The notes under the pieces were generated by a model. The model was not told the origin of the DNA. It saw nothing but the letters and a program-made list of their open reading frames with translations, and made no database searches. DNA of 64,000 nucleotides from Microbacterium proteolyticum (GTDB lineage Bacteria; Actinomycetota; Actinomycetes; Actinomycetales; Microbacteriaceae), in NCBI RefSeq assembly GCF_030818075.1, contig NZ_JAUSZZ010000001.1, positions 2,666,001 to 2,730,000 on the forward strand, read 5' to 3'. A program made the position numbers and the translations under genes. Below are positions 1-64,000 of this stretch, piece after piece. The stretch's first letter is position 1. Each line of letters opens with the position of its first letter.

Positions 1-666
1 GCCGCCGGTGGCCCGCACCGCCGTCAGACCTGAGCGCACCGGCCCCCGCACGAGCACGTGACCACGGCTGAGGGTCACACGCGTCCACGCGCCGCTCGTC
101 CTGACCGTGGCCGACTCCCCGCCGGCGATGAACCCCAGCGCGAAGGCTGCGAAGGCGGTGCCGAGCGGCAGCCCGCCCAGCGCCTCGTCCGGCTGTCCCC
201 ACACCTGCGCGCGGACGACGCGCACGACGTCCTCCCCCGCGTTCGCCGGCAGGGCGTCGGCGACGGCGGCGACGCCGTACTGGGCTCGGGATGCCAGCAC
301 GGCCGCGTCGATGGCATCCGTCTGCGTCCAGCCGCTCCGCGGTGGAGAGATGCCCGCCCAGGCGGGCGAGGAGGCCGTCTCGGGGAGCACGACCGCCTGC
401 GCGTCGTCGGGGGCGGGAAGCAAGGCGGCGGCATCCACGACGAGATCGCATTCGAGCTCGGGATCGATGGCCGACACCCGTAGTCCCAGCACCGTGGGCG
501 TGGTGTCGAAGAGGCCGCGGGGCGCGAGCGGCGCCGCGGTCGAGACGAGCACCCCCGCGTCGGCCCGCAGCCGTACCGTCCCGTCGCCCAGTCGGATCGC
601 GCGGGACGCGAAGGTGAGCAGGTCGGCTGCCGCCTGCGGATCGGGGAACAACAGACGCGCGGACAC
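1..666 (-). CDS. Hypothetical protein, 3' end beyond window
   Basis: The minus strand is open from a GTG at 666 through the window edge (222 codons, no stop reached). It begins VSARLLFPDPQAAADLLTF and shows normal high-GC codon use, with ordered aliphatic/acidic alternation rather than the Arg/Pro-rich composition of shadow frames. I do not recognise the family. A small hydrophobic stretch (LGTAFAAFALGFIAGG) lies near residues 170-185. The start is supported by a TAGTTT hexamer exactly 7 nt upstream, which would give a leaderless mRNA. It is divergent from the tesB-like gene. Reality of the gene is fairly sure; function is unknown. Confidence 0.72.
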   Translation of the reverse strand, partial: MSARLLFPDPQAAADLLTFASRAIRLGDGTVRLRADAGVLVSTAAPLAPRGLFDTTPTVLGLRVSAIDPELECDLVVDAAALLPAPDDAQAVVLPETASSPAWAGISPPRSGWTQTDAIDAAVLASRAQYGVAAVADALPANAGEDVVRVVRAQVWGQPDEALGGLPLGTAFAAFALGFIAGGESATVRTSGAWTRVTLSRGHVLVRGPVRSGLTAVRATGG

Positions 667-672
667 CCGCCC

Positions 673-679
673 TAAACTA
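673..679. promoter_or_regulatory. Overlapping divergent -10 elements
   Basis: The sequence TAAACTA reads TAAACT on the plus strand and TAGTTT on the minus strand, offset by one base. The minus hexamer is 7 nt from the GTG of the leftward gene; the plus hexamer would start a short leader for the thioesterase gene, which has its own GGAACGGAG ribosome site. No convincing -35 is visible on either side. Inference from spacing only. Confidence 0.5.
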
Positions 680-718
680 CCAAGCGGTGCGGACCTGCCG
701 TACCGGAACGGAGACGAC

Positions 719-1588
719 GTGGCCGACGCCCCCGACCCCGTGGCGTCGTTGCTCGCGGTTCTGGACCTGCGCGATGCCGGAGCCCGGACCACCGAGGACA
801 TCTTCACCGGCGTCTCGCAGCCCATGCCGTTCGGGCGCGTGTACGGCGGTCAGGTGCTCGCACAGACCATCGTCGCCGCATCGCGCACCCTGCCGCCGGA
901 GCGCACCGTCCACTCGATGCATGGATACTTCCTGCGCCCCGGCGACCCTGCGACCGGCATCACGTTCTCGGTCGACCGGATCCACGACGGTCGCTCGTTC
1001 TCGACGCGCCGCACGCAGGCGTTCCAGGCGGGTGTACCGATCTTCTCGATGATCGCGTCCTTCCAGGACGAGGATCCCGGTCTCGAGCACGCGGAGCCCA
1101 TGCCGGACGGCATCCCGCAACCGGAGGAGCTCCCGCCGTTCGACCCGACGGGCCTGCATCCCCTCAGCCGCCGGATGTTCTCGGAGCAGCCCGTCGACGT
1201 CCTCCACGTCCCGTCACCGCTCTACCGCTCCGTCGAGGGCCCCCACGTGCCACGTCAGGCCGTCTGGATGCGCGCGCGTCGCGCCCTGCCCGACGACCCC
1301 GCGGTGCACCGCGCCGCGCTGGCGTACCTCAGCGACCTCACGATCCAGGAGTCCATTCTGCGCGCGCACGGTGTGGCCTGGAGCACCGCGGGGCTCAAGG
1401 TCGCGAGCCTGGACCACGCGATGTGGTGGCACCGCCCCGCCCGCGTGGACGAGTGGCTGCTGTACGTGCAGGAGTCGCCGAACGCGCGCGGCGGCCGCGG
1501 CCTGTCGACCGGTCGGATGTACACGCGCGACGGCGCCCTCGTGGCCAGCGTGGCGCAGGAGGTCATGGTGCGCGTGCCGCGGGACTGA
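719..1588 (+). CDS. tesB: Acyl-CoA thioesterase II (TesB family)
   Basis: Predicted to hydrolyse medium- and long-chain acyl-CoA to free fatty acid and CoA in the cytoplasm. The 289 residues match the usual TesB length and hold two hot-dog domains: an N-terminal half with FGRVYGGQVLAQTIVAA, and a C-terminal half with AYLSDLTIQ (position of the catalytic Asp) followed by SLDHAMWWHRPARVDEWLLY and ASVAQEVMVR, all typical of TesB. The open frame extends far upstream, but GTG at 719 is chosen because GGAACGGAG precedes it and residues before it are low-complexity. It stands alone; a second, unrelated thioesterase lies convergent downstream. Confidence 0.93.
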   Translation: MADAPDPVASLLAVLDLRDAGARTTEDIFTGVSQPMPFGRVYGGQVLAQTIVAASRTLPPERTVHSMHGYFLRPGDPATGITFSVDRIHDGRSFSTRRTQAFQAGVPIFSMIASFQDEDPGLEHAEPMPDGIPQPEELPPFDPTGLHPLSRRMFSEQPVDVLHVPSPLYRSVEGPHVPRQAVWMRARRALPDDPAVHRAALAYLSDLTIQESILRAHGVAWSTAGLKVASLDHAMWWHRPARVDEWLLYVQESPNARGGRGLSTGRMYTRDGALVASVAQEVMVRVPRD

Positions 1589-1815
1589 GCCGCACGCCCG
1601 TGCCGCGATGAGTTCTGGCGAGCCGGAGCGCCGGCAACAGGTGACGAGGCCTCGGAGATCACTCGTCGGCCCCATCTCGCGGACGGTTCCGGACCGCAGC
1701 CTGCGGGGCGGAGCGAGCGCCCCTGCTGCGCAACACGTCGAGGGACGTCTCAGGACCCCGGGGCGGATGCCGCGACGCGCGGCGGACGCGAACGGCCGGC
1801 GGGTGCGCCGTGCGA

Positions 1816-2347
1816 TCAGGCCCGGGTGGTCCGGCGGCGATAGTCGATCGGGTCGCCCGTGACGGGCGCCCATGCATCGCGTTCCGCCGCGCTCCAGCGG
1901 ATCGGACGTCCGCTGGCGGTGTCGACGAGGACCACCACCACCGTTGCGCGGGCGTAGAGCACCGGGTCCGCGTCGCCGGCGGGGCTGAACACCTCGAAGC
2001 AGATGTCGGCGCTCGATCCGCCCATCGCTCCGATCCACAGGCGCACGTCGAGCGGACGCTGGCTGTAGGGCACCGGGCGGAGGTACTCGATCTCCTGCCG
2101 GGCGATCAACGTCGCCCGCGCCCCGCCGCTCTCGAGCACGCTCATGTCGAAAACGGCGGTCGGCAGTGCTTCCCCGCCGTCGTCGCTTCGCCAGAAAGCC
2201 CGGAGGCGCGCCTCTTCGAGGAGCTTCAGCATCGAGGTGTTGTTGACGTGACCGAGGGCGTCGAGGTCGCCCCACCGGAGCTGGATCGGCACGTGCACCC
2301 GCTCGGGCCCGGCCGAAGCCGGACCCGAGTCGGGCGTCGCGGGCGTC

Positions 2348-2355
<8 letters not shown>
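1816..2355 (-). CDS. Hot-dog acyl-CoA thioesterase (4HBT/YbgC-like)
   Basis: A 179-residue single hot-dog protein. LRWGDLDALGHVNN is the classic active-site loop of the 4HBT/YbgC family, with the catalytic Asp before the helix carrying LLEEARLRAFW. The family cleaves short or aromatic acyl-CoA thioesters. GTG at 2355 is used: it overlaps the ettA stop in GTGACTGA, so translation is probably coupled to ettA. An in-frame ATG 14 codons further up gives only Arg/Pro-rich residues. The substrate cannot be told from sequence. Confidence 0.88.
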
Positions 2356-4027
<1,672 letters not shown>

Positions 4028-4083
4028 AACCCGTCCAGTCTAGGGGCGGGCCTCGACGGGGGTCGACGAGCGTCGACCTCCGT

Positions 4084-4578
4084 TCACCAGTCGATGGCGC
4101 GCGTCTGCCCGATCAGGCATCCGCCGGACGCGAGTCCGGGGAGCACCGTGGTGACGGGGTTGCCGATGGAGGGCCCCACCTGACCGACCAGGCAGTCGTC
4201 GCCGAGGCGGACCGAGAATTCGATGCTCTCCGCGGCATTGCCGATCGTCGACTGATCGGGGGTGACCTGCATGGCGCTCTTGTCGAAGCCGGCAGCCGTC
4301 AGGGCGTCGACGTAGGCGCGTCCGGCGACCTGATCCGGTCCTCCCCACACGGACGTCACCACCTGGGTGAAGAACGCGAGGTTCTGCTGCGCGGTGCCGC
4401 CGGGGACGAACGCCACCGGTGCCGCCGTCGCCGCCGTTGTCGAGGGGGCCGCCGTGGTCGCCGTCGTTCCGGAGGCGCCGCTGGGGGCGGGGGCGGGCTG
4501 CTCGACGGTACAGCCGACGAGAGCCAATACGGCCACGAGGGTCAGGGCGGCGAGGGGACGACCGAGGGAGCGAGACAC
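4084..4578 (-). CDS. Small lipoprotein of unknown function
   Basis: A 164-residue lipoprotein. The signal peptide VSRSLGRPLAALTLVAVL ends in lipobox ALVGC, with the lipidated Cys near residue 25. A Thr/Ala-rich linker follows, then a compact C-terminal domain with two cysteines (DDCLVG and GGCLIG) that could form a disulfide outside the cell. It resembles a family of small actinobacterial lipoproteins, possibly DUF6993; that name is from memory. GTG at 4578 puts the signal peptide at the N terminus and has TAGACT 7 nt upstream (leaderless). The open frame continues upstream only as Arg-rich residues. Confidence 0.8.
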   Translation of the reverse strand: MSRSLGRPLAALTLVAVLALVGCTVEQPAPAPSGASGTTATTAAPSTTAATAAPVAFVPGGTAQQNLAFFTQVVTSVWGGPDQVAGRAYVDALTAAGFDKSAMQVTPDQSTIGNAAESIEFSVRLGDDCLVGQVGPSIGNPVTTVLPGLASGGCLIGQTRAIDW

Positions 4579-4899
4579 GGATGCGAGTCTACGTAACCGC
4601 GCGTTCGCGCCCGCCGGGCGGCGCGTCGGAGGCCCGGCCGTCCTCGCGACGCCCCCCGGCCGTCCTCGCGAAGCCCGCGGCCGTCTTGTCCGCTCGGCCC
4701 CGCCCCGACGCCGACGGTGCGTCGGCCGTCTCCTCGCTCCGACCCGCCGTGATTCCGGCGCCGGCCATCCCGTCCGCTCCACCCCGCCGGGACGCCGCCA
4801 CCCCGCCGGCCGTCCACTCGGGGTTCCGTCGACGGCGCTTCCGCACGCCCGAGCGCTGCCGCGACCGGCAGGCGTGCCCCCTTCCGCCACCTCTGCGGG
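4579..4899. other. Intergenic, no gene seen
   Basis: About 320 bp of extremely G+C-rich sequence. All frames give Arg/Pro-rich low-complexity peptides. Around 4637-4690 there are three imperfect copies of CGGCCGTCCTCGCG. Apart from the promoter hexamer of the leftward lipoprotein gene at 4586-4591, nothing functional can be supported. Confidence 0.5.
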
Positions 4900-5427
4900 T
4901 CAGAACGGTGTGGCGTCGTCCGTCGGGCCCGACTCCCCGCTCGCGCCGGCCCCGACGGCGGCCGGGACGCCGATCGGCTCTCCGGACGTTCCGGGCACCG
5001 ACCATTCCGCTTCGCTCGAGCCCCCTCCGGGCAGCGCGGCAGAGGGCGCCGGATCGGCGGACGCGGACGGTTTGGGGGTGCGCTCGAAGCGGGTGGTACC
5101 CCAGCGCAGGTCGTGTCCGATGGCGTCGGCGACGACGTCGGCACTCACGCCGCGCTTGGTCTCGGTCTCCCATTCGCGCAGGCGCAGGCGCCCACTGAGC
5201 ACGACGCGCTCGCCCTTGCGGAGGGAGCGGAGGGCATTGGCGCCCAACTCGCCGAACACCGAGACCGAGTAGTAGTTGGTATGCGCATCGACCCACTCGC
5301 CGCGCTCCCGGTCGAGCCTTCGTTCGCCGACGGCGAGCCGGAATGCCGCGACGGACCCGCCGCCGCGGGTCGCCCGCTGCTCGAGGTCACCGACGATGTT
5401 GCCGACGAGGGTGATGTGATCGCTCAT
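4900..5427 (-). CDS. Single-stranded DNA-binding protein (secondary SSB)
   Basis: A 175-residue SSB-like protein. Residues 1-105 form the OB fold (MSDHITLVGNIVGDLEQR, NYYSVSVFGELGANALRSLRKGERVVLSGRLRLREWE). A disordered Pro/Ser/Gly/Ala tail ends in DDATPF, which matches the acidic SSB tip that recruits repair partners. The usual replicative ssb of actinobacteria sits beside rpsF/rpsR, absent here, so this is probably a paralogue; in other actinobacteria such copies serve competence or segregation. ATG at 5427 is preceded by GAGAGGACAAC. Upstream in its leader is a strong hairpin built from the GGATGCC motif. Confidence 0.88.
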   Translation of the reverse strand: MSDHITLVGNIVGDLEQRATRGGGSVAAFRLAVGERRLDRERGEWVDAHTNYYSVSVFGELGANALRSLRKGERVVLSGRLRLREWETETKRGVSADVVADAIGHDLRWGTTRFERTPKPSASADPAPSAALPGGGSSEAEWSVPGTSGEPIGVPAAVGAGASGESGPTDDATPF

Positions 5428-5454
5428 GATGTTGTCCTCTCGATGTGATGTACG

Positions 5455-5487
5455 CTCCGGCATCCGTGTGCCCGACGGATGCCGGAG
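5455..5487. promoter_or_regulatory. 13-bp perfect inverted repeat in the ssb leader
   Basis: CTCCGGCATCCGT (5455-5467) pairs perfectly with ACGGATGCCGGAG (5475-5487) across a 7-nt loop. Each arm holds the heptamer GGCATCC/GGATGCC. It sits 28 nt before the ssb-like start on the minus strand. It could be a leader hairpin or a terminator for readthrough; no U-tract follows on either strand. Confidence 0.55.
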
Positions 5488-5630
5488 ACTCGCTCAGAAT
5501 GGCCGGAGAACCGCCCGCGCCGAGGACGAGACGACCCCGATCGTGGAGAGGTGACACGGATTCGCGGCTGTGCAGGAGCCCTGTCCGCCGTGACCAGGGC
5601 GATGTCGGAGGTCCGTCGTACGTTCGGGGC

Positions 5631-5888
5631 ATGAGCACCGCACTGTGGAACGACCTCGCTCCGGCCCCGCGTCCGGCCGGGTGGGGGGCGGCGACGCACG
5701 TCGCCGCGGGCCTGTGGCGCATCGCCGATCCCCGGGGCATCGTGGTCGGTCACATCCGCGCGATCGCCGCGGACGGTGGCTGGCGGTACGCCGCCGAACG
5801 ATTCCACACCGCGTCCGGGAGCTTCCGCCGGCTCGGCGAATTCTGGTCGTCCACTGACGCGCTCGAGTGCCTGCGGTACGCGCGGTGA
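5631..5888 (+). CDS. Small conserved-looking protein, unknown
   Basis: An 85-residue protein, MSTALWNDLAPAPRP..., with balanced composition (AAGLWRIADPRGIVVGHIRAI, then WRYAAERFHTASGSFRRLGEFW, then ALECLRYAR). It has no signal peptide or membrane segment and looks like one alpha/beta domain rich in Trp and Arg. I do not recognise it. ATG at 5631 has TACGTT 6 nt upstream, consistent with a leaderless transcript, and has no ribosome site. Convergent with the MocR regulator gene. Confidence 0.68.
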   Translation: MSTALWNDLAPAPRPAGWGAATHVAAGLWRIADPRGIVVGHIRAIAADGGWRYAAERFHTASGSFRRLGEFWSSTDALECLRYAR

Positions 5889-5922
5889 GCGTCCTGCCGC
5901 AGCGCGTCGGGGCGACGCGCCG

Positions 5923-7341
5923 TTACACGACCGTCGCGAATTCCTCGCGGACGGGGCTGGTGCGCCCACCTCGCACGTCGGCCCACGCCGCATGCAGCAC
6001 CTCCACGGCCCGTTCGAGCGTGGCCGGGGGTGCCGTGAACGGCACGCGCAGACGCCGGTCGTGTCCGCCTTCGACGGCGAAGCGCGAGCCCGCGGACAGC
6101 GCCAACCCGCGTGCGCGCGCGTTCATGACCAGAGGTGTGCTGAGCGGTTCGCCCAGGCCCACCCACAGCGACACCCCGCCGTTGACGTCCGGCACCTCCC
6201 ACTCCGGCAGCGTCCGGCGCAGCGCCGCCGACAAGGCGTCGCGGCCCGCGCGCAGAAGGTCGCCCCGCTGCCGGGCGATCTCGTCGAGTCGGGGGACGAG
6301 TCGCAAGGCGATGGCCTGCTCGATCTCGGGTGTACCGAGGTCGTTCACGGGGCGACCACTCGCCAGACGCCGCACGAGGTCGGGGGCTGCACGGACCCAC
6401 CCCACGCGCAGCCCGCCCCAGACCGTCTTTCCGAGCGAGGCCACGCGGAGGATGCGCTCGTCGTCGGGGAACGGCGCGGGGCCGGCCTCGCGGTCGATGT
6501 CCAACTGCGCGGTCGTCTCATCGAGAACGAGGAGGGTGCCGGCCGACTGCGCCGCCGTGACGAAGGCCGAAACCTCGCCCGGGGTCATCGTGCGGCCCGT
6601 CGGATTGTGGAAGTCGGGCATCAGATAGGCGAGCGTCGGCAGCGCCCGAGCGAAGCTCTGGGCCGCGCGCTCGAGGTCCCACCCGCTGACGGAATCGACG
6701 GGCACGCCGATCAGCCGGGCGCCGGCGCGGCGGAACGCGTCGGCGGCGTGGGGGTAGGTGGGTGTCTCGAGCATCACCCGGTCGGCGCGCCCGAGCAGCA
6801 CCGAAGCGATCAGGTGGATGGCGCTCTGCGCGCCGGTCGTGACCAGGATCTGCTCGGGCGAGGTGGGGAGACCGCGTGCGTCGTAATGCTCCGCGATGGC
6901 GGCCCGCAAGGCGGAGTCACCCACGACGTCGTATCCGATCCGGGCGACGAGCGCCGGAGCATCCTGTGCGACCTCGGCGATGATCCCGGGCAGACCCGGC
7001 CACGCGGCCGGGCTTGCCTGCTGCAGGTCGATGGCGGCCCCATCCCGGTCCTGCACGGCCGGGCTGCTCCTGCGCAGCGGGAGCGTCACACTGCCGCTTC
7101 CCCGCAGGCTCTCGATATGGCCGCTTTCACGCAGACTCCGGTAGGCCGCGGCCACGGTGGTGCGGCTGAGCCCGAGCGTCGCCGCGAGCTCGCGCTCCGC
7201 GGGAAGGGCCGTCGAGGGGGCGAGGCGGTTGTCGAGGCACAACAGCCTGACGCCGTCCGCGAGAGCCTCATAGGCGGGACCGCTCCCCCGCCACCCTCCG
7301 AGTGCGGACGTCAGGGCGCGAGCGGAGATGCGAGAGTCCAT
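5923..7341 (-). CDS. MocR-type regulator (GntR HTH + aminotransferase fold), YczR-like
   Basis: A 472-residue PLP-linked transcription factor. Residues 1-80 hold a GntR winged helix (LPAERELAATLGLSRTTVAAAYRSL, then RGSGSVTLP). The rest is a type-I aminotransferase fold (TTGAQSAIHLIASVLL, MPDFHNPTGRTM, VLDETTAQLD, RVASLGKTVWGGLRVGW, where the Lys would bind PLP). The gene directly opposite encodes a YczE-type membrane protein, the recurrent partner of the YczR subgroup, so it probably controls that gene. ATG at 7341 has TATCGT 6 nt upstream (leaderless). Ligand unknown. Confidence 0.92.
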   Translation of the reverse strand: MDSRISARALTSALGGWRGSGPAYEALADGVRLLCLDNRLAPSTALPAERELAATLGLSRTTVAAAYRSLRESGHIESLRGSGSVTLPLRRSSPAVQDRDGAAIDLQQASPAAWPGLPGIIAEVAQDAPALVARIGYDVVGDSALRAAIAEHYDARGLPTSPEQILVTTGAQSAIHLIASVLLGRADRVMLETPTYPHAADAFRRAGARLIGVPVDSVSGWDLERAAQSFARALPTLAYLMPDFHNPTGRTMTPGEVSAFVTAAQSAGTLLVLDETTAQLDIDREAGPAPFPDDERILRVASLGKTVWGGLRVGWVRAAPDLVRRLASGRPVNDLGTPEIEQAIALRLVPRLDEIARQRGDLLRAGRDALSAALRRTLPEWEVPDVNGGVSLWVGLGEPLSTPLVMNARARGLALSAGSRFAVEGGHDRRLRVPFTAPPATLERAVEVLHAAWADVRGGRTSPVREEFATVV

Positions 7342-7402
7342 GAGGCCACGATACTCCGATTGGCATCCTGCGTAACGTCCAATCTCGTGATTGGCTTTCT
7401 CC
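7342..7402. promoter_or_regulatory. Divergent operator region, mocR-like/yczE-like
   Basis: The 61-bp gap holds ATTGG at 7359 and 7390, with the inverse CCAAT at 7378. These spaced boxes suit a GntR-type dimer with a bulky second domain, as described for MocR regulators, which often bind repeats in the divergent spacer. Candidate -10 elements are TATCGT (minus, 7348-7353) and TTGGCT (plus, 7391-7396), each 6 nt from a start codon, so the boxes flank or overlap both promoters. Confidence 0.45.
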
Positions 7403-8011
7403 ATGCTGCTTCGGACCTCCCGCCTCTTGATCGGCCTCGTGCTGTACGGCTTCGGCTGCGCCCTGACCGTCGCGGCCGGCCTCGGGGTCGACCCGTGGAC
7501 CGTGTTCGCTCAGGGTCTCTCGCGTGTCACCGGAGTGGGCATCGGGTGGATCACGAACGTCGTGGGGCTCGCCGTTCTGCTGCTGTGGATTCCCCTCCGC
7601 CAGAAGCCCGGCCTCGGCACGATCGCCAACATCCTCCTGGTCGGCACGAGCATGCAGGTCGCCCTCGCGGTGCTCCCCCACCCCGATCAGCTGTGGCTTC
7701 AGGCCCTGTTACTGGTCGCGGGCGTCGTCGTCGTCGCGGCGGCATCCGGGCTGTACATCGGAGCCCGGTTCGGACCCGGGCCGCGGGATGGGCTCATGAC
7801 AGGTCTGAACGGGCGCTTCGGGTGGCCGATCTGGGCCTGTCGACTGCTCGTCGAGGGGTCGGTGCTCATCCTGGGGTGGATCCTCGGCGGCACCGTCGGG
7901 GTCGGTACGGTCGTGTTCGCCGTCGGCATCGGACCCCTGGTCCATGTCGCGTTGCGTCTGTTCACCTCCACCCAGCCCACCTCGCGCCCCCGCCGCCTCG
8001 CGCGGGCGTGA
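7403..8011 (+). CDS. YczE/YitT-like integral membrane protein
   Basis: A 202-residue polytopic protein with about five membrane segments: SRLLIGLVLYGFGCALTVAA, WITNVVGLAVLLLWIPL, the pair LLVGTSMQVALAVLP/LQALLLVAGVVVVAAAS, LVEGSVLILGWILGG, and TVVFAVGIGPLVHVALRLF. The GxGVDPW and GARFGPGPRDGLM segments are characteristic of the YczE group of probable transporters. The last residues are Arg-rich. Start at ATG 7403; a TTG four codons earlier would overlap the proposed -10. Expression is probably set by the opposite MocR regulator. Substrate not known. Confidence 0.87.
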   Translation: MLLRTSRLLIGLVLYGFGCALTVAAGLGVDPWTVFAQGLSRVTGVGIGWITNVVGLAVLLLWIPLRQKPGLGTIANILLVGTSMQVALAVLPHPDQLWLQALLLVAGVVVVAAASGLYIGARFGPGPRDGLMTGLNGRFGWPIWACRLLVEGSVLILGWILGGTVGVGTVVFAVGIGPLVHVALRLFTSTQPTSRPRRLARA

Positions 8012-8225
8012 ACAGGCGGGCACAGGCGCATACGTCGAGACCCCCTTTCACGAGAGACACTCCGGCCCACCCCTCGCACCTCGACCGCGGGCTCGCGCTC
8101 CCGGACTCCGCAATCGTCGCCGCGACAGGAGAATCACGAACGTTCGCAACCTAAGAGCCGCGCCTCGCCGAGGGATCAGGGCGACCGCGTGCGCGCTCCC
8201 GACGATCCGCTGACACGATCGAGAG

Positions 8226-8265: not shown

Positions 8266-8272
8266 CCCGGCG

Positions 8273-8657: not shown

Positions 8658-8694
8658 CCGAAGCGATGTCCGATGCCCTCAATAGAATGTGGGG

Positions 8695-55718: not shown

Positions 55719-56882
55719 ATGAGGCTGCCGTTCGCTGCATCGACGCGTTCGTCCGTGGGTCTGGAGTGGGAGCTCATGCTCGCCGATCGCGCGACGGGCG
55801 ACCTCGTCCCCCGCGCACCCGAGATCCTCGAGCACCTCGAAGACAAGACGGCGCTCGAGCGCTTCACCATCACCGGCGAGCTGCTCACCAACACCGTCGA
55901 GGTCACGAGCGGGGTCGGGCATACCGTCGCCGAGGCCGTCGACGACATCGGCGATGCGATCTGCGCGCTGCGGGAGGAGACCGAGCCCCGCGGGCTCGAG
56001 CTTCTCTGCGCCGGCAGCCACCCGTTCGCGCAGTGGTACGACCAGGAGGTCACGGACAAGACGCGGTACCACTCGCTCATCGAACGCACCCAGTGGTGGG
56101 GCCGCAACATGATGATCTGGGGCATCCATGTGCATGTCGGCGTCGACGACGTCGAGAAGGTCATTCCCATCGTCAACGCCCTCACGGTGTTCCTCCCCCA
56201 CCTGCAGGCCCTGTCGGCATCCAGTCCGTTCTGGGCGGGCGAGCGCACCGGCTACACCTCGAACCGCGCGCTGGTCTTCCAGCAGCTGCCGACGGCGGGT
56301 CTGCCGTGGCAGCTCGGCTCTTGGACCGACTTCGAGAACTACCTCGACGACATGGTGCGCACGGGGGTGATGGCGGATGCCACCGAGGTGCGCTGGGACA
56401 TCCGTCCGGCGCCGAAGTGGGGCACGGTCGAGATCCGCGCGTGCGACGGCATGTCGACGCTGCCCGAGCTCGCGGCCGTCGCCTCCCTCGCGCAGACGCT
56501 CGTCGAGCACTTCTCACGCCTCATCGACGAGGGGCGCGAGCTCCCCGGCATCCCTCCGTGGTACGCCCGGGAGAACAAGTGGCGCGCCGCCCGATATGGA
56601 CTGGACGCCCGGGTCATCGTCGACCGCGAGGGCACGCAACGCCCGGTGATCGAGCATCTCCGAGAGACGATGGAGGAGCTGGCCGACGTGGCGCTGGAGC
56701 TGAAGTGCGCGCGGGAGTTCGCGAGCCTCGAGACCATCCTCGCCACCGGCGGCAGCTCCGCCCGTCAAGTGGCGGTGGCCGACGCCGCCGGCGGCGATCT
56801 GCGCGCGGTCGTGCAGCACCTCATCCGCGAATTCCGCGGGGGCCCGACCTTGCGCGAGCACCTGGCCGCGCTGCGCGTCTGA
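55719..56882 (+). CDS. Carboxylate-amine ligase, YbdK type (GCS2)
   Basis: A 387-residue member of glutamate-cysteine ligase family 2: SSVGLEWELMLADRATGDLVP, ELLTNTVEVTSGV, AGSHPFAQWYDQEV, GIHVHVGVDD, EVRWDIRPAPKWGTVEIRACDG (given as EVRWDIRPAPKWG plus TVEIRACDG), and YARENKWRAARYGLDA. YbdK has weak gamma-glutamylcysteine activity; in actinobacteria, which use mycothiol, the true product is uncertain. ATG at 55719 has CAGACT 7 nt upstream. Standalone gene. Confidence 0.91.
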   Translation: MRLPFAASTRSSVGLEWELMLADRATGDLVPRAPEILEHLEDKTALERFTITGELLTNTVEVTSGVGHTVAEAVDDIGDAICALREETEPRGLELLCAGSHPFAQWYDQEVTDKTRYHSLIERTQWWGRNMMIWGIHVHVGVDDVEKVIPIVNALTVFLPHLQALSASSPFWAGERTGYTSNRALVFQQLPTAGLPWQLGSWTDFENYLDDMVRTGVMADATEVRWDIRPAPKWGTVEIRACDGMSTLPELAAVASLAQTLVEHFSRLIDEGRELPGIPPWYARENKWRAARYGLDARVIVDREGTQRPVIEHLRETMEELADVALELKCAREFASLETILATGGSSARQVAVADAAGGDLRAVVQHLIREFRGGPTLREHLAALRV

Positions 56883-56917
56883 GTGGGCTCATAGCTGCGC
56901 GCTCCTAGGATCGCGAC

Positions 56918-57655
56918 ATGATCTCCCGACACCGCGCATCGTCGGTATCGCTGACGGTGCTCGCGGCCTCGGCCGTGGCACTGCTCTCCGGCTGCGCGGC
57001 GGATCCCGTCGCGCCCGCAACGGCCCCGACCCCGACGTTCGCTGCGCCGATGCTCGCGGCATCCGCCCCGTCCGCTCCGCCGGTGAGCTCCTCGGCGACC
57101 GAGCGCGTGGTCACCCTCGGCGACTCGCTCATGTCGGGCTTCGGCCTCTCGCCACGCGACGCGTGGCCCCTCCTCCTCGCCGAGCGGGCGCACATCTCGC
57201 TGACCAACCTCGCGTGCCCCGGCATGGGGTTCGTGGTGCAGGGCGACTGCGGCACGCCGTATGCGGGCCTCGTGCCCGCGATCGCGGCGCTCCAGCCCGA
57301 CGTCCTGATCGTGCAGTCCTCCAGCAACGACTTCTGGGAGGACCCCGACGAGATCCGGTACAGCACCGCGGACACCGTCGACAGCCTGCACGCTGCGGCA
57401 CCCGGAGCGCGCATCGTCGCTCTCAGCACCATCTGGAACGACGACCCGCAGGTGCCCGACGACACCGCCGTGACCTCCGAGGCGCTGCGCGACGCCGTTC
57501 AGGCGATCGGCGGCACGTACATCGACCTCAGGCAGCCACTGGCGGGCCACCCCGAATGGATGCAGGACGACGACGTTCACCCGACAGCCCGCGGGCAGAG
57601 GGCCATCGAGCAGACGGTGATGAGCGCTCTGCAGGAAGCCGGAGTGTTGCCCTGA
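56918..57655 (+). CDS. SGNH/GDSL hydrolase lipoprotein
   Basis: 245 residues. Signal ASSVSLTVLAASAVALLS with lipobox LLSGC; an Ala/Pro/Thr linker to about 60; then an SGNH domain: VVTLGDSLMSGFGLSP (Ser), NLACPGMGFVVQGDCG, VLIVQSSSNDFWEDP (Asn), and DDDVHPTARGQ (Asp, His). It is an extracellular esterase or lipase-like enzyme with unknown substrate. ATG at 56918 has TAGGAT exactly 6 nt upstream (leaderless). Confidence 0.88.
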   Translation: MISRHRASSVSLTVLAASAVALLSGCAADPVAPATAPTPTFAAPMLAASAPSAPPVSSSATERVVTLGDSLMSGFGLSPRDAWPLLLAERAHISLTNLACPGMGFVVQGDCGTPYAGLVPAIAALQPDVLIVQSSSNDFWEDPDEIRYSTADTVDSLHAAAPGARIVALSTIWNDDPQVPDDTAVTSEALRDAVQAIGGTYIDLRQPLAGHPEWMQDDDVHPTARGQRAIEQTVMSALQEAGVLP

Positions 57656-57676
57656 CGCCGTCCCGTAGAACGCGGA

Positions 57677-59221
57677 TCAGCCCTTGCCGAGCATCTTCTG
57701 CAGCTCGGCGAGGTCGGCTTCGCTCGGCATCTTCTGACCGCCCAGCCCGAAGCCCGAACCCGTGGCCGGCGCGGATGCCGCGATACCGGCGTTCTCGGCG
57801 GCGCGCTTGGCGGGGTTGCCCGAGCGCGACCCCTTCGCCTTCTGCTGCTTGCCACGCTTGGACGAGGCGCCGGGCTTGCCGCCGACGGGACCCATGCCCG
57901 GGATGTTGGGCACACCGCCGCGCGCGACGGTCTTCATCATCTTCGCCGCCTGATCGAAGCGCTGGACGAGCTGATTGACGTCGGTGACGGTCATGCCCGA
58001 TCCGCGCGCGATGCGCAGGCGCCGGGAGCCGTTGAGGATCTTGGGGTTCCGGCGCTCGGCGAGGGTCATCGAGCGGATGATGGCCTCGGTGCGGTCGATC
58101 TCGCGCTCGTCGAAGTCTTCGAGCTGCTGCTTCATGTTTCCCATGCCCGGGAGCATCCCGAGCATCTTCTTCATGGAGCCCATCTTCTTCATCTGCTGCA
58201 TCTGCTCGAGGAAGTCCTCGAGCGTGAAGGTCTCCGTCGCGATCTTCTCGGCGACCTTCATCGCCTCGGCCTCGTCGAAGGCCTGCTGCGCCTGCTCGAT
58301 CAGGGTGAGGATGTCACCGAGGTCGAGGATGCGGGATGCCATGCGGTCGGGGTGGAACGGCTCGACGTCGTCGAGGCCCTCACCGGTGGAGGCGAAGATG
58401 ATGGGGCGGCCGGTGACCGACGCGACCGAGAGCGCCGCACCACCGCGGGCGTCACCGTCGAGCTTGGACAGCACCACGCCGGTGAAGTCGACGCCGTCCT
58501 GGAACGCCTTGGCCGTGTTGACGGCATCCTGTCCGATCATCGCGTCGATGACGAACAGCACCTCGTCGGGCTGGGTGGCCTTGCGGATGTCCGCCGCCTG
58601 CTTCATCAGCTGGGCGTCGACACCGAGACGACCGGCGGTGTCGATGATGACGATGTCGTGCTGCTGGCGGGTCGCGTGGGCGACGCCGTCGCGGGCCACC
58701 TTGACCGGGTCGCCCACCCCGTTGCCGGGCTCGGGCGCGTAGATGGCGGCCCCGGCGCGCTCAGCGACGACCTGCAGCTGGTTGACGGCGTTGGGGCGCT
58801 GCAGGTCGCACGCGACCAGAAGCGGCGTGTGGCCGTCTTTCTCGAGCATCTTGGCGAGCTTGCCCGCGAAGGTCGTCTTACCGGAGCCCTGGAGACCGGC
58901 GAGCATGATGACCGTCGGGGGGTTCTTCGCGAACTGCAGACGGCGCTGCTGACCGCCCAGGATGCCGATGAGCTCGTCGTTGACGATCTGCACGACCTGC
59001 TGCGCGGGGTTCAGCGCCCGGTTGACCTCATCGCCGAGGGCACGCTCGCGCACCGCGGCGGTGAACTCCTTGACCACGGGCAGCGCCACGTCGGCGTCGA
59101 GCAGGGCCCGGCGGATCTCGCGCACCGTCCCGTCGACGTCGGCGGCCGTGAGCTGGCCCTTCTTACGCAGATTGCGGAGGGTCTCTGTGAGCCGGTCGGA
59201 GAGGGTGCCGAAAGTCGCCAT
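57677..59221 (-). CDS. ffh: Signal recognition particle protein Ffh
   Basis: 514 residues. N domain (SDRLTETLRNLRKKGQLTAADV), G domain with GLQGSGKTTFAGKLAKM (G1), DTAGRLGVDAQLM (G3), and SKLDGDARGGAALS (G4), then the Met-rich M domain (LEDFLEQMQQMKKMGSMKKMLGMLPGMGNMKQQ, here in parts). The tail is Gly/Lys-rich. TAAACT lies 9 nt upstream of the ATG, so the leader is very short. No SRP RNA gene was seen nearby. FtsY is 4 kb away. Confidence 0.97.
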   Translation of the reverse strand: MATFGTLSDRLTETLRNLRKKGQLTAADVDGTVREIRRALLDADVALPVVKEFTAAVRERALGDEVNRALNPAQQVVQIVNDELIGILGGQQRRLQFAKNPPTVIMLAGLQGSGKTTFAGKLAKMLEKDGHTPLLVACDLQRPNAVNQLQVVAERAGAAIYAPEPGNGVGDPVKVARDGVAHATRQQHDIVIIDTAGRLGVDAQLMKQAADIRKATQPDEVLFVIDAMIGQDAVNTAKAFQDGVDFTGVVLSKLDGDARGGAALSVASVTGRPIIFASTGEGLDDVEPFHPDRMASRILDLGDILTLIEQAQQAFDEAEAMKVAEKIATETFTLEDFLEQMQQMKKMGSMKKMLGMLPGMGNMKQQLEDFDEREIDRTEAIIRSMTLAERRNPKILNGSRRLRIARGSGMTVTDVNQLVQRFDQAAKMMKTVARGGVPNIPGMGPVGGKPGASSKRGKQQKAKGSRSGNPAKRAAENAGIAASAPATGSGFGLGGQKMPSEADLAELQKMLGKG

Positions 59222-59394
59222 GATGCAATGAGTTTACGCGGGGCACGCCCGGCGCGCTTTCGCGTCGGCCCGGTTCCGTGCGGACTCGCCCGGCGGCACG
59301 AGCTCCTCACCCCGTCGACCCCGGATGCCACGGACTCTGCGCGGATCACCCAGGTCAGGCACCGCGGCCCGGCGCCCGGAAGTCCGGAGGCGGG

Positions 59395-59943
59395 TCACGC
59401 GAGGTCGAGGACCTCCGCCAGCACCTCATCGAGCGGGCGTCCGGCGCCCGTGCGATCCGCCCACGCCCATACCGCGGCGAGCACGGCCGCCGACAGGGCG
59501 CCGGCACGCACCTGCGCGGCGAGCACCGGCATCCCGTCGTGCGCAAGACGGAGGGCGATCTCACGCTGCAGCCGGAACTGCCGCACGGCACGGTCGCGGT
59601 CGAGCTCGGCGGCGATTCCCATTGCCTCGGCGTTGGTGATCGCGAGCGCGAGGGCATCCGGCGCGAGACCTGCGCCGATAGCGGCCAGAGCGCCCTCGAC
59701 CGCGATGCCCTCGCGCAGCAGCGCGATCCCCGCCGCGGCCTGTTCGTCGAAGCCCGACCACAACACGTCGCTCTTGGCGGCGAAGTAGTTGAAGAAACTC
59801 GACCGGCTCACGCCCGCGCGTCGGGTGATGTCGGACACGCTCGTGGCGTCGTAGCCCTGCTCGAGGAACAATTCGCAAGCCGCCTCGGCCAGCACCTCAC
59901 GCGATGAGGCGCGAGGGCGTCCACTGCGCGGCTCGGGGGTCAC
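59395..59943 (-). CDS. TetR-family transcriptional regulator
   Basis: 182 residues. N-terminal [28 protein letters not shown], then [23 protein letters not shown]. The ligand domain (85-180) is Ala/Leu-rich and not diagnostic. GTG at 59943 has TAGGCT 6 nt upstream, so leaderless. It is divergent from lipB but the 64-bp gap shows no obvious dyad; a target cannot be named. Confidence 0.9.
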
Positions 59944-60007
59944 CGGCTCAGCCTAGACGCGAGGCGGGCATGTATTCTTGGACGCAATCCAACATCGGAG
60001 GCGATCG

Positions 60008-60646
60008 ATGATCGACATCCATCACGCGGGCCTCGCTCCGCTCTACGTCCCCTATCTCGATGGCTGGGCCCACCAGCGTCGCATCCACGCCGACGTCGTC
60101 GCCGACGAACGCCCCGACACCCTTCTGCTCCTCGAGCACGAAGCCGTCTACACCGCCGGCAAGCGCACCGAGGCGCACGAGCGTCCCGACGACGGCACCC
60201 CCGTCATCGACGTCGATCGCGGCGGCAAGATCACCTGGCACGGCCCGGGTCAGCTCGTCGGGTACCCGATCGTGCGCCTGGCCGAGCCGATCGACGTCGT
60301 GGCCCACGTGCGCCGACTGGAGGGACTGCTGATCGATGCGCTCGGCGAGCACGGGGTCGACGGCTTCCGCGTCGACGGCCGCAGCGGCGTGTGGGTTCAG
60401 CGGCCGCTCGGTGTGGACAAGGTCGCCGCGATCGGCGTGCGCGTCGAGAAGGGTGTGACCATGCACGGTTTCGCTGTCAATTGCAACAACTCCCTCAGCG
60501 GTTTCCGGCACATCGTGCCGTGCGGCATCTCGGATGCCGGTGTCACGACCGTCAGCGACGTGGTGGGCGCCGACGTCTCCCCCGCCGACCTCGTACCGGC
60601 GATCGAGCGCGTCTTCCGCGCCGAGTACGCGGCGGTGGCGGCATGA
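60008..60646 (+). CDS. lipB: Octanoyltransferase LipB
   Basis: 212 residues; moves octanoyl from ACP to lipoyl domains. Motifs: [65 protein letters not shown] (catalytic Lys) and [10 protein letters not shown] (catalytic Cys). ATG at 60008 follows CGGAGGCGATCG. TATTCT at 59973-59978 is the likely -10. Its stop overlaps the lipA start in ATGA. Confidence 0.97.
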
Positions 60647-61677
60647 GCGCCTGCGGGACCGGGAACGCCGGGGCCCCGGCATCCACCGCTCCGAACGGGC
60701 GGAAGCTCCTGCGCCTCGAGGTACGCAACGCCGAGACCCCCATCGAGCGCAAGCCCGAGTGGATCAAGACCAAGGCCAAGATGGGCCCGGAGTACACGGC
60801 GCTGCAGAAGCTCGTGAAGGGTGAAGACCTGCACACCGTGTGTCAGGAGGCCGGCTGCCCGAACATCTTCGAGTGCTGGGAGGACCGCGAGGCGACGTTC
60901 CTCATCGGCGGCTCGCAGTGCACCCGCCGCTGCGATTTCTGCCAGATCGACACGGGTAAGCCCGCCGACTACGACACCGATGAGCCGCGCCGCGTCGCCG
61001 AGAGCGTGACACGGATGCAGCTGCGGTACGCCACGGTGACCGGTGTGGCCCGCGATGATCTGCCCGACGAGGGAGCGTGGCTGCACGCCGAGACGGTGCG
61101 CCGCATCCACGCCGAGAACCCGGGCACAGGCGTCGAGATCCTCGCGACGGATTTCTCGGGCAACCCCGCGCACCTCGAAGAGGTGTTCTCCTCACGCCCG
61201 GAGGTGTTCGCGCACAACGTCGAGACGGTGCCGCGCATCTTCAAGCGCATCCGCCCGGCGTTCCGCTACGACCGCTCGCTGGGTGTGCTGAGCGCCGCCC
61301 GCGACGCGGGGCTCATCACGAAGTCGAACCTCATCCTCGGGATGGGCGAGGAGCCGGAAGAGGTGGTGCAGGCGCTTCAGGATCTGCACGACGCCGGCAC
61401 CGACATCATCACGATCACGCAGTACCTCCGCCCCACGCCTCGACACCTGCCCGTCCAGCGCTGGGTGAAGCCCGCCGAGTTCGTGGAGTTCAAGGACGAG
61501 GCCGAACGCATCGGCTTCCTCGGCGTGCTCGCCGGCCCCCTGGTGCGCTCGTCGTACCGCGCAGGTCGGTTGTGGGCGCAGTCGATGGTGTCGAAGGGCC
61601 GCGAGATCCCGCCGCACCTCGCCCACCTCGCGAAGGACATCGCGGCGGCCGACGCCGGATTCGCGCAGGCGGTCTGA
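60643..61677 (+). CDS. lipA: Lipoyl synthase LipA
   Basis: A 344-residue radical-SAM enzyme that inserts two sulfurs into the octanoyl chain. The auxiliary cluster cysteines are in [20 protein letters not shown] and the SAM cluster in [25 protein letters not shown] at the C terminus is the conserved RSSY ligand motif. With LipB it forms the endogenous lipoate route. The last eight codons and stop are repeated 113 bp downstream in a tandem duplication. Confidence 0.97.
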
Positions 61678-61876
61678 CCCGCGCATGTCCCGGAAGCGGC
61701 TGCCGGGCGGCCCCTCAGCCAGCCGGTTCGGGGACACGCCCTCGCCGGAATCGGGACACGGCTGACGCCGGGTTCGCGCAGGCGGTCTGACCCGCGCATG
61801 TCCCGGAAGCGGCTGCCGGGTTGCCCCTCGGCCAGCCGGTTCGGGGACATGCCCTCGCCGGAACCGGGACACGGTC
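61651..61876. repeat. 113-bp tandem duplication covering the lipA 3' end
   Basis: Copy A (61651-61763) and copy B (61764-61876) both begin GACGCCGG and hold the codons for DAGFAQAV, a stop, then CATGTCCCGGAAGCGGCT... and AGCCGGTTCGGGGACA, which pair as an 18-bp imperfect stem. They differ at a handful of positions. Copy B abuts the stop of the leftward endonuclease-V-like gene, so the hairpins may terminate both transcripts. Confidence 0.92.
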
Positions 61877-62303
61877 AGACCGGCCAGATGTAGGGAAGGT
61901 CGTCGGGCACGTCACCGAAGCGGGGGACGTAGAACTCGGCATCCTTGCGGATGAGGTTCGACCGGTGGGCACGGTGGAACTCGGGGTCGCCGATCCAGTG
62001 CGGAAGGTCGAGTTCGCTCGGGTCGAGACCGTCGACCTCGGGCGCGAACGCACGGATCTTCTCCCGCACCGTGTCGGTGCGGCCCCGGGCGATCCACTCA
62101 TCGCTCATCACGAGTCCGTACGCGACGAGGGCGGGCAGGTGCCCGTCCCACATCTTCGCCGCCGGGTGGTGACGCCACCCATGCCCGGGGACCGTCAGCG
62201 CCCGCAGCAGCTGGAACGTCTCGACGCGCTGCTTGCCCAACCGCTTGAGGTCGAGGGCGCGGGCGGAGTCGACGAAGGACGGGTACGGCAGGAAGGTCTG
62301 CAC
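61875..62303 (-). CDS. Pyrimidine-dimer DNA glycosylase/endonuclease V-like protein
   Basis: A 142-residue protein of the MSMEG_6728 type: MQTFLPYPSFVDSARALDLKRLGKQRVETFQLLRAL, then GWRHHPAAKMWDGH and WIARGRTDTVREKIRAF. The family is related to T4 endonuclease V, but the T4 catalytic Thr2 is a Gln here, so activity is unproven. GTG at 62303 is preceded by the DUF2004 gene's stop 4 nt upstream. Confidence 0.85.
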   Translation of the reverse strand: MQTFLPYPSFVDSARALDLKRLGKQRVETFQLLRALTVPGHGWRHHPAAKMWDGHLPALVAYGLVMSDEWIARGRTDTVREKIRAFAPEVDGLDPSELDLPHWIGDPEFHRAHRSNLIRKDAEFYVPRFGDVPDDLPYIWPV

Positions 62304-62307
62304 GCGC

Positions 62308-62808
62308 TCAGTCGGCGCTGGTGACCGACTGCACCCGGCCGTCGGAGGCGAGGTTGACCAACAGCACGTCGTCGGTCGCGTCGGGGTCGAGCGCGTACTC
62401 CAGGACGGCGAACGGGTCGGCGCCGCCGTGCTCGTCGGCGAGGATGGTCATGCTCATCAGCTGCAGCGCCTTGATGACGTCGATGTGCGTGTCACCGCTC
62501 ACGTCGGCGAGCAGGTCGTCGAGCCCGTCACCGAGCGTCGCCTGCTGCTGCAGGATGTATTCGGTCACTTCACTCGTACGGGAATCGAGCTCCCCGACCA
62601 TCGCGTTGCGCGCGGCGAGGTCGATCGCCTCGAGGGAGGAGATCATGGATGCCGCGACATCGAGCGCCTCGGCCGAGACGTCATCCTGATCGGGTGCGGT
62701 CAGGTCGACGGTGACGCTCTGGTCGCCGAACTCGACGTTCTCGCTCCAGAAGATCGACCCGTCGGGGCCCGACTCGAGGAGTCCGAAGAAGTCGTGCTCG
62801 ATGGCCAT
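62308..62808 (-). CDS. DUF2004-like cytoplasmic protein
   Basis: 166 residues, strongly acidic (MAIEHDFFGLLESGPDGSIFWSE, VTVDLTAPDQDDVSAEALDVAA, VNLASDGRVQSVTSAD). It matches what I know of DUF2004 proteins: an N-terminal beta domain and helical C-terminal part. Function unknown. ATG at 62808 has GGAG 2 nt upstream and TTACAT 6 nt upstream, so it may be leaderless. Probably heads a two-gene transcript with the endonuclease-like gene. Confidence 0.8.
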   Translation of the reverse strand: MAIEHDFFGLLESGPDGSIFWSENVEFGDQSVTVDLTAPDQDDVSAEALDVAASMISSLEAIDLAARNAMVGELDSRTSEVTEYILQQQATLGDGLDDLLADVSGDTHIDVIKALQLMSMTILADEHGGADPFAVLEYALDPDATDDVLLVNLASDGRVQSVTSAD

Positions 62809-62914
62809 GGCTCCATGTAATCAGGCCCGTCGGGGTTCGGGAAGACGACCCGCCCACGCGCGCCGGTGCGGTATGGGGCGATCGCTGCGCGAACGGCCCG
62901 CGGGTGCCGCTACG

Positions 62915-63787
62915 TCAGTCGACCAGCGACGACGCGAACACGTGCGGGGTGAACCCCGTGAGGTCGCCGATCCCCTCGCCCTGGCCGAGGAGCTTGACCG
63001 GGATGCCGGTGCGCTCCTGCACGGCGAGGACGAATCCGCCCTTCGCCGACCCGTCGAGCTTGGTGAGCACGAGGCCGGTCACACCCGCGCTGTCGAGGAA
63101 GGCCTGCGCCTGCATGAGACCGTTCTGGCCCGTCGTTGCATCCAGCACCAACAGAACCTCGCTGATGGGCGCCTGCTTCTCGATGACGCGCTTGATCTTC
63201 CCGAGCTCGTCCATGAGCCCGCCCTTGGTGTGGAGGCGCCCAGCCGTGTCGACGAGCACGATCTCGGTGCCCGTCTCCTTGGCGTGGGCGACGGTCTGGA
63301 AGGCGACGGATGCCGGGTCCTGGCCCTCATGCTGAGGACGCACGATGGTCGCGCCTCCGCGCTCAGCCCACGTGGCGAGCTGGTCGACGGCCGCGGCGCG
63401 GAACGTGTCGGCGGCGCCGACCACGACCGTGCGTCCGTAGCGCTGCAGGAACTTGGCGAACTTGCCGATGGTGGTGGTCTTACCCACGCCGTTCACGCCG
63501 ACGACCAACACGACGGCCGGACGCTCGGTGAGGCGCAGTGTCGTGTCGAACTTCGCGAAGTGCTCTTCGAGCGTCTCGCGCAGCATGCGCTGCAGGTCGC
63601 GCGGATCCGTCGTGCGGTAACGGTCGACCTTCTCGTGCAGCTCGTCGATGAGCCGCTCCGTGACGTCGGGGCCGAAATCGGCGGTCAGCAGCGCCGTCTC
63701 GAGGTCGTCCCACGTCGTCTCGTCGATCGTGGGCTTGACGAACAATCCGCGCAGCGCGCGGCCCAGCGACCAGGAGTTCTCAGCCAT
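62915..63787 (-). CDS. ftsY: Signal recognition particle receptor FtsY
   Basis: 290 residues: a short N domain and the G domain GVNGVGKTTTIGKFAKFL (G1), DTFRAAAVDQL, DTAGRLHTKGGLMDEL (G3), and TKLDGSAKGGFVLAV (G4). The long acidic A domain of E. coli FtsY is absent, as in many actinobacteria; membrane binding would rest on the N-terminal helix (SLGRALRGLFVKP). TAAGCT lies 6 nt before the ATG, inside the smc 3' end. Confidence 0.97.
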   Translation of the reverse strand: MAENSWSLGRALRGLFVKPTIDETTWDDLETALLTADFGPDVTERLIDELHEKVDRYRTTDPRDLQRMLRETLEEHFAKFDTTLRLTERPAVVLVVGVNGVGKTTTIGKFAKFLQRYGRTVVVGAADTFRAAAVDQLATWAERGGATIVRPQHEGQDPASVAFQTVAHAKETGTEIVLVDTAGRLHTKGGLMDELGKIKRVIEKQAPISEVLLVLDATTGQNGLMQAQAFLDSAGVTGLVLTKLDGSAKGGFVLAVQERTGIPVKLLGQGEGIGDLTGFTPHVFASSLVD

Positions 63788-63791
63788 TGCT

Positions 63792-64000
63792 TCAGCTTAC
63801 GGGCGCGGCTTCGACCCGGCTCGCCGCCCGGTCCCCCACGCGTTGACCGACGACCGCCGACACGCCGTCCTGTCGCATCGACACCCCGTACAGCGCGTCC
63901 GCGATCTCCATCGTGCGCTTCTGGTGCGTGATGACGATGAGCTGACTGCTGGCGCGAAGCTTCTCGAACACCCCCAGCAAGCGCCCGAGGTTGGCGTCGT
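63792..64000 (-). CDS. smc: Chromosome segregation protein SMC, C-terminal end
   Basis: The last 68 codons of an ABC-type SMC ATPase: [15 protein letters not shown] (just after the Walker B), [37 protein letters not shown] (H-loop HQK), and a short tail. The 5' part is outside the window. The next gene, ftsY, follows after 4 nt, the usual smc-ftsY order. Confidence 0.93.

Follow-up and report, generated by a model that had tools for sequence, protein, structure and literature searches.

Uptake sequences are described, in the cited passages of the literature, for the Neisseriaceae and Pasteurellaceae, two Gram-negative groups. DNA uptake sequences (DUS) occur once per 400–1100 bp (PMC7371117), their dialects share CTG (PMC3630211) and their inverted pairs serve as terminators (PMC2397512). 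According to the cited part of PMC1939737, over-representation in known uptake sequences is graded with mismatch load, a reported pattern rather than a strict definition. Here we analyze the heptamer GGATGCC and its complement GGCATCC in a stretch of 64,000 bases from the actinomycete Microbacterium proteolyticum (genome G000, a single contig of 3,767,688 bases), together with the rest of this genome and its relatives. This stretch (bases 2,666,001–2,730,000, 70.2% GC) is called the window below.

With a probability of roughly 0.6, we read GGATGCC, in its longer form YGGATGCCRNG, as a DUS-like self-recognition signal of Microbacterium and many other Microbacteriaceae. It would work like a DUS, and we stop short of counting it among the established members of that class.

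Results

GGATGCC is abundant and balanced between the strands

An exact search of the window returned 53 copies of GGATGCC and 56 of GGCATCC. This is the total of 109 given in an earlier note on this DNA, and the strong over-representation claimed there was confirmed, because a second-order Markov model predicts only 16.4 copies (z 22, Poisson tail about 1.6e-51). Ranked by this model, GGATGCC heads all 7-mers of the window in over-representation. The sites are the following.

GGATGCC, + strand, 53 sites by exact search (span 289..63314), first bases: 289 1765 3811 5477 10573 11453 12369 14124 14288 15587 15993 21055 22929 24154 24468 24817 26284 27313 28152 29615 30359 30773 31174 31888 34019 36875 37841 40692 42009 42024 42456 42697 44585 47455 47496 48380 49249 50424 52528 52808 52946 53086 53226 53366 56375 57773 58334 58960 59323 60532 62647 63001 63308
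GGCATCC (motif on the − strand), 56 sites by exact search (span 313..61944), first bases on the + strand: 313 430 1109 2393 3245 3584 4116 5459 7362 7741 8405 11613 14085 14327 14972 15422 17574 19355 20501 22718 24385 24787 24841 25042 25168 25827 28684 30218 30782 32665 33450 35326 35468 38004 39122 40701 45832 46461 47918 48583 48637 50433 52549 52968 53248 53381 55019 56121 56216 56547 57058 58523 59528 59653 60678 61938

Over the whole genome, GGATGCC was counted 3,231 times and GGCATCC 3,338 times. The total of 6,569 corresponds to one per 574 bp or 1.74/kb. The reversed word, used as a control, was found 375 times (188 + 187). Besides such whole-genome pattern counts, detailed work on M. 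proteolyticum used 20 stretches of 20 kb plus the window, i.e., 464 kb with 811 copies. Motif-less relatives of the same GC, 272 kb in total, served as the reference for enrichment ratios. They contain 99 copies, a background of 0.36/kb, and the excess in M. proteolyticum is thus 4.8-fold.

Chi and FtsK-orienting polar sequences (KOPS) are short over-represented words oriented by replichore. For GGATGCC, the forward share was 42–60% in the window and in every one of the 20 sampled 20-kb stretches. Since forward and reverse copies are balanced within each stretch sampled, the word is not polar, and the earlier argument from strand balance against Chi- or KOPS-type signals holds.

Some copies lie in local arrays. 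Positions 52528–53372 of the window form a tandem array of about six 140-bp units with 88% matches, and motif copies lie about 140 bp apart in most of it. At 14326–14395 of locus L089 (14,326–14,395 of the genome), four direct copies with an exact 21-bp spacing probably represent a small tandem repeat.

Codon usage does not explain the excess

Genes in the 464 kb were called by third-position GC, which gave 363 genes covering 76% of the DNA, and synonymous codons were then shuffled within each called gene in 60 rounds. The called genes contain 613 copies of the motif, compared with 150.8 after shuffling (sd 7.9, highest of the 60 rounds 170). By frame, the excess over shuffled genes was 36.7-fold for GCA-TCC, 7.2-fold for GAT-GCC and 1.5-fold for GGC-ATC; the first two are the codon pairs that the earlier note had described as forced by the word. 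Density was the same inside and outside called genes (1.74/kb), although the outside class is impure and contains uncalled genes, because the caller reached just 76% of the DNA. The claim that copies occur both in genes and between them is therefore borne out for genes and, for the remainder, applies to this mixed class.

These counts bear on the simplest explanation, a codon-pair or mutational bias that leaves the word without function. Codon use mostly accounts for the GGC-ATC pairs, and the motif-less relatives do show a background of the word. Shuffling nevertheless rejects codon-pair preference and codon usage as the cause of the excess, above all in the GCA-TCC frame. The equal density outside called genes, the dialects and the near-background counts of phages as a set (see below) also speak against such a bias, which we consider extremely unlikely.

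The extended word YGGATGCCRNG reflects a preceding C (0.45) or T (0.23), a following G (0.71) or A (0.24), and a G at the third base after the heptamer. The flank preferences are also present outside called genes.

Sites are conserved in close relatives and turn over at larger distance

The earlier note had proposed to look at the conservation of motif positions. The window was aligned with 22-kb loci of 14 relatives, unaligned sites were dropped, and phase-matched words of the same strong/weak pattern served as control. Positions were kept above control in close relatives and were near expectation at 76–77% identity. In the nearest aligned relative (87% identity), 24 of 34 sites were identical, compared with 7.7 for phase-matched words and 13 by the unmatched rate (0.39). 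The excess was seen throughout the 12 loci at 82–87% identity, with 18–24 sites kept of 33–36. At two loci with 76–77% identity it was gone or small: 6 of 29 sites were kept where 3.1 are expected, and 5 of 30 where 4.2 are, and both figures fall short of the unmatched rates (0.22 and 0.25). Both loci are still motif-dense, with 30 and 31 copies where 5.8 are expected in each. At this distance, positions have turned over while density stayed.

Among six close relatives, considering sites that were gap-free in at least four of them, 11 of 34 motif sites were intact in all, vs 56 of 610 control words. Changed sites differed by at least two bases in 11 of 23 cases for the motif and in 49 of 554 for the controls. 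Such multi-base changes at the word fit the import of whole alleles by recombination, a process described for DUS (PMC2397512).

Phages are near background and low-GC islands are poor in the word

Eleven Microbacterium phages from several genera carry 197 copies in 509,793 bases (0.386/kb), and three Gordonia phages carry 61 in 167,886 bases (0.363/kb); a Curtobacterium phage (9 in 39,487) was excluded from both sets. As a set, the phages neither share nor avoid the word and are near background. This is of relevance for a reading of the word as a restriction–modification target, in favour of which one may count that CGGATCC, a related word described below, contains the BamHI site and GGATGCC that of FokI. 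A restriction target predicts avoidance, whereas the word is in excess, and the direction of the bias hence contradicts this idea. Neither are the Microbacterium phages depleted as a set relative to those of the other genus, and phage Min1 has 16 copies vs 12.9 expected. We regard a restriction site as very improbable.

Within the M. proteolyticum genome, the ratio of observed to expected copies was 1.0–1.7 in the ten 2-kb segments at 57–63% GC and 5.6–9.9 in the bins of higher GC. Of the seven motif gaps longer than 3 kb in the sampled DNA, five have a GC fraction of 0.58–0.63. Two neighbouring low-GC gaps, including the longest desert, lie at 7146–17353 of locus L103; besides a resolvase and a phage integrase, they contain a SIR2-domain gene. 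This region is likely a mobile or defence island that was found through its lack of the word. Further low-GC motif deserts are L090 1497–6745 and L093 13749–20000; the former runs into an open reading frame (ORF) weakly matching NACHT, upstream of RelA/SpoT domains.

Relatives use other words

GGATGCC was present in all 366 genomes of the genus that were searched, with 434 (G272) to 9,877 (G097) copies. Across the family, 150 genomes of 85 genera ranged from control level (G416, 229 vs 245 for the control) up to 7,364 copies (G422). At the level of the order, 139 of 149 genomes lie outside the family and mostly have about 0.1–0.5 copies/kb; one genus with genomes of about 2 Mb (g88) has 0.39–0.68.

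We distinguish four main dialects, A (GGATGCC), B (CGGAACC), C (CGGATCC) and D (GGATGCT). In an unsupervised k-mer ranking of 20-kb stretches, the top words for G044, G078, G060, G045, G108, G152 and G028 included CGGATCC or GGATCC. CGGAACC or GGAACCA led the list for G106, G327 and G244. The ranking gave no dialect word in 20 kb each of G008, G150, G324, G277 and G119, and G324 has 5,107 CGGATCC hits genome-wide. In whole-genome counts of 32 genomes, CGGATCC hits numbered 7,280 in G044, 9,333 in G152, 8,706 in G028 and 9,177 in G240, vs 721 in M. proteolyticum; these hits outnumber sites because CGGATCCG is its own complement. CGGAACC was counted 4,768 times in G106, 3,802 in G327 and 4,315 in G244, vs 825 in M. 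proteolyticum. GGATGCC drops to 468 in G044 and 704 in G152, both rich in CGGATCC, and stands at 507 in the CGGAACC-rich G106. The dialect of Microbacterium sp. AG1240 (L027) is GGATGCT, which mostly takes the form GGATGCTG (50 copies in 82 kb, with 3.4 expected). For G008 and G150, at 100 kb each, none of the five words tested was clearly in excess (GGATGCC 25 vs 24.7 and 34 vs 24.9), and 17 intermediate genomes, at 14–20 kb each, showed mostly no clear word. In some motif-poor genomes, with about 20 kb each, the leading words were CGTGTAG (G022, L150), CCGGATG (G062 and G063, L152 and L153) and GGATGCG (G024, L151), which are perhaps further dialects.

All four main dialects contain GGA, usually after C (C fraction 0.45, 0.85, 0.58 and 0.58 for A–D). 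This common GGA may be compared to the CTG core of the DUS dialects. By the GlgX protein, the nearest named relatives of M. proteolyticum belong to Microbacterium (93% in M. enclense). A GlgX tree comprised 78 of 80 loci (L022 and L040 left out) and had one very long branch (L076). GGATGCC labels 57 of these loci and occurs on most branches; 16 loci have no word, two have GGATGCT, two CGGAACC and one CGGATCC. This tree does not establish the ancestral word, as it was rooted only for display and each label is based on some 12–22 kb. In a ComEC tree of 21 of the 23 extracted rows (two were dropped for too few columns, G044 and G263 gave no extract, and many rows are partial), dialect B forms one clade and dialect C appears in two places.

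Inverted pairs and hairpins

Two hairpins of the window are built from inverted motif pairs; no strand is assigned to either.

40685..40714: terminator-like hairpin, inverted pair GGATGCC-GT-GGCATCC, 13-bp stem, outside called genes (RNA fold −29 kcal/mol, z −5.4)
5455..5487: second hairpin, inverted pair GGCATCC ... GGATGCC, 13-bp stem, outside called genes (fold −27.2 kcal/mol, z −5.3)

In the 464 kb, adjacent copies at most 30 bp apart formed 42 inverted and 12 direct pairs. Seven inverted pairs (14 of the 811 copies), including the two above, have stems extended by at least three bases. All seven lie outside called genes, four of them between convergent called genes, and the six that were folded reached −27 to −47 kcal/mol (z −5.3 to −11.2). 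Sixty control words with 42,912 sites gave 732 inverted, 1,115 direct and 40 extended pairs, and 40 related loci had 41 inverted and 7 direct motif pairs, only three of them extended. The use in terminator hairpins that the earlier note had pointed out is thus real but minor, and by sequence and predicted fold these hairpins appear terminator-like. Inverted pairs mostly lack a stem extension (35 of 42) and 24 of 42 are inside called genes.

Dialects and hairpins also help to weigh the nearest alternative to an uptake sequence, a site bound by an abundant protein of chromosome organisation, replication or recombination and selected for its number along the chromosome. Such sites could well be conserved, widespread, present on both strands and scarce in low-GC islands and most phages tested, as observed. 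In dialects A, B and C, moreover, a short spacer separates paired GG and CC arms, an arrangement that would suit a dimeric protein. A chromosome-binding site would, however, require thousands of sites to be rewritten with each dialect change, and relatives without any tested word (G008, G150) would render its function dispensable. Polar signals of the Chi or KOPS type are excluded by the balance per stretch, and the inverted pairs in terminator-like hairpins find no ready explanation. A binding site explains dialects and hairpins less well than an uptake sequence, and we consider it rather unlikely.

Competence genes and methyltransferases

In M. proteolyticum, comEA–comEC lies about 60 kb before the window (L102), with Pfam matches to Competence, HHH_3 and SLBB over cut-offs; in NCBIfam, neither the ComEA models nor the one for full-length ComEC reached cut-off. 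Of 150 family genomes, 148 gave a ComEC match, and the other two are fragmented assemblies (180 and 420 contigs). A ComEA-type HHH domain was found in 25 of 25 genomes. The sole T2SSE match of M. proteolyticum over cut-off is TadA, whose locus also encodes a DUF4244 protein and two TadE-like proteins; TadA and both TadE-like proteins exceed the NCBIfam cut-offs. Next to this tad locus is a large gene, the start of which presumably resembles topoisomerase I. The genus has two tad systems (L214–L234), the M. proteolyticum type (TadA, DUF4244, TadE, Rv3654c-like) and a second one about 40% identical in TadA, for which no second T2SSE match over cut-off was found in M. proteolyticum. By tblastn, the first type was found in G171, G044, G325 and one of two G182 loci, and the other fetched tad loci matched in TadA only (38–43% identity), plus one weak TadE match. 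ComEC, the ComEA-type HHH domain and the T2SSE ATPase were also considered as genes lost together with the motif and were rejected, as they are present in motif-less genomes. In Micrococcus luteus, the apparatus for transformation includes Flp (Tad) pili, and transformation is lost on deletion of comEC; the same source, in the part cited, calls tad together with comEA/EC frequent in actinobacteria (PMC4322843).

A further possibility would resemble HIP1, the highly iterated palindrome of cyanobacteria. A methyltransferase would mark the word, methyl-directed or sequence-specific mismatch repair would make or keep it, and dialects would follow changes of specificity. HIP words abound in cyanobacteria, and a model of methylation-dependent repair has been put forward for them (cited part of PMC4390886). 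PF01555, an N6/N4 methyltransferase family, is common here as well (19 of 22 genomes), yet it has no match in G097, the genome with most copies, and is present in the motif-less G008, G150, G119 and G660. PF00145 occurs in 13 of 25 genomes and has no match in M. proteolyticum, G097, G106, G044, G078, G028 and G334. Both families were rejected as determinants, as they do not track the word. GGATGCC, CGGAACC and GGATGCT are furthermore not palindromes, in contrast to GGATCC.

Repair might also leave traces in neighbouring words. In 49 pooled sequences, a Markov model that is itself inflated by the word placed 4 of 21 one-mismatch words at 1.5–1.9 (GGATGCT 1.92, GGATGTC 1.73, GGATTCC 1.56, GGATGAC 1.53), and one, GCATGCC, at 0.45. 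No neighbour that could be the source of repair was depleted in both the Markov and the motif-less comparison: GCATGCC rises to 1.2 in the latter, and GGATCCC has 0.80 and 0.50. We hence judge a HIP1-like origin improbable. The earlier note had held a methylation, replication or nucleoid-protein site to be equally possible; with polarity excluded and PF01555 and PF00145 failing, this is now less likely.

Separate from these genes, an ORF for the branching enzyme GlgB at 27852–31727 of the window has a long N-terminal stretch, and matches begin near residue 575–682 of 1291.

Discussion

If GGATGCC is an uptake sequence, competent cells would prefer environmental DNA that carries the word, presumably via a surface DNA receptor, for which a minor pilin of the Tad pilus or ComEA would be an obvious candidate. 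ComEC would import one strand, and homologous recombination would swap out the resident allele. Word-bearing alleles would thus enter more often, and the word might build up wherever coding constraint allows, on both strands. Were the receptor specificity to shift, the genome would slowly be rewritten in a new dialect. Competence, uptake bias, receptor and drive are all parts that we infer.

The likeness to DUS that the earlier note had drawn stands on most of the sequence features compared, as density, strand neutrality, dialects, hairpin pairs, the phage and island background, and conservation with turnover fit such a reading. It fails on two tests, because near-match words are not enriched and competence genes do not track the word. 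Compared with motif-less genomes, one-mismatch words showed no enrichment (0.5–1.5-fold). Within the fetched pieces, ComEA, complete or partial ComEC and an ATPase of the T2SSE family are kept by the motif-less G008, G150, G277, G119 and G325, and ComEC is also found in the motif-less G416 and G485. As these relatives keep the machinery, it does not predict the word.

Further observations weigh against an uptake sequence. Gaps between sites are nearly exponential, i.e., spacing is near random (coefficient of variation 1.09). Pairing is reversed in dialects B (6 inverted vs 23 direct) and C (7 vs 12). The multi-base changes also fit with two preferred codons returning once constraint is lost. 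Among the phages, Efeko is an outlier with 19 copies in 17,491 bases (1.09/kb), and the recorded hosts of the phages are other Microbacterium species whose own word is possibly not GGATGCC. Finally, two of the seven motif gaps longer than 3 kb have near-normal GC (0.69 and 0.70).

In its widest form, our proposal is a first Gram-positive uptake-sequence system, a family-wide code of the Microbacteriaceae with several dialects and losses, which would be read by a component of the Tad pilus or of ComEA–ComEC, drive the word and set sexual barriers between clades. We give this wider claim even odds. If true, it would offer an independent case in the Actinomycetota with hundreds of sequenced species, dialects and motif-less relatives, and hence a replicate-evolution test of why uptake sequences exist, for which self-recognition, repair and pure molecular drive compete as reasons. 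It would point to competence in a family without a report of it in the literature searched. Our search, with most subscription journals outside its coverage, found among the matches listed no uptake sequence or overrepresented motif reported for Microbacterium, Microbacteriaceae or Actinobacteria. With GGATGCC as a term, the matches listed concerned only unrelated subjects by title and abstract. In practice, the word could then serve as a tag for transforming Microbacterium, and foreign islands could be spotted cheaply as motif deserts.

Comparison with known systems

Polar words such as Chi and KOPS differ from GGATGCC, which is balanced in every stretch sampled. HIP1 (GCGATCGC) of the cyanobacteria likewise recurs very often across the genome, and some strains have alternative words. 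HIP words are linked to methyltransferases and palindromic (cited part of PMC4390886), which dialects A, B and D are not, and here neither PF01555 nor PF00145 tracks the word.

The uptake signal sequences (USS) of the Pasteurellaceae come closer. They have hundreds to thousands of copies without general orientation bias, also inside genes (cited part of PMC2346458), as is the case here. In USS, enrichment is graded with mismatch (PMC1939737), in contrast to the lack of one-mismatch enrichment over motif-less genomes in our analysis.

With the DUS of the Neisseriaceae, GGATGCC shares strand-neutral copies, dialects with an invariant core, inverted pairs in terminator-like hairpins, scarcity in islands and highly conserved sites (cited parts of PMC3630211, PMC7371117 and PMC2397512). 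Its density is DUS-like as well, because one copy per 574 bp falls inside the DUS range. The word itself is unrelated, has 7–9 bases rather than 10–12, and belongs to Gram-positive Actinomycetota, and its use in hairpins concerns a small minority of copies. Neisseria has ComP as its sequence-specific receptor, whereas receptor and uptake bias are putative here.

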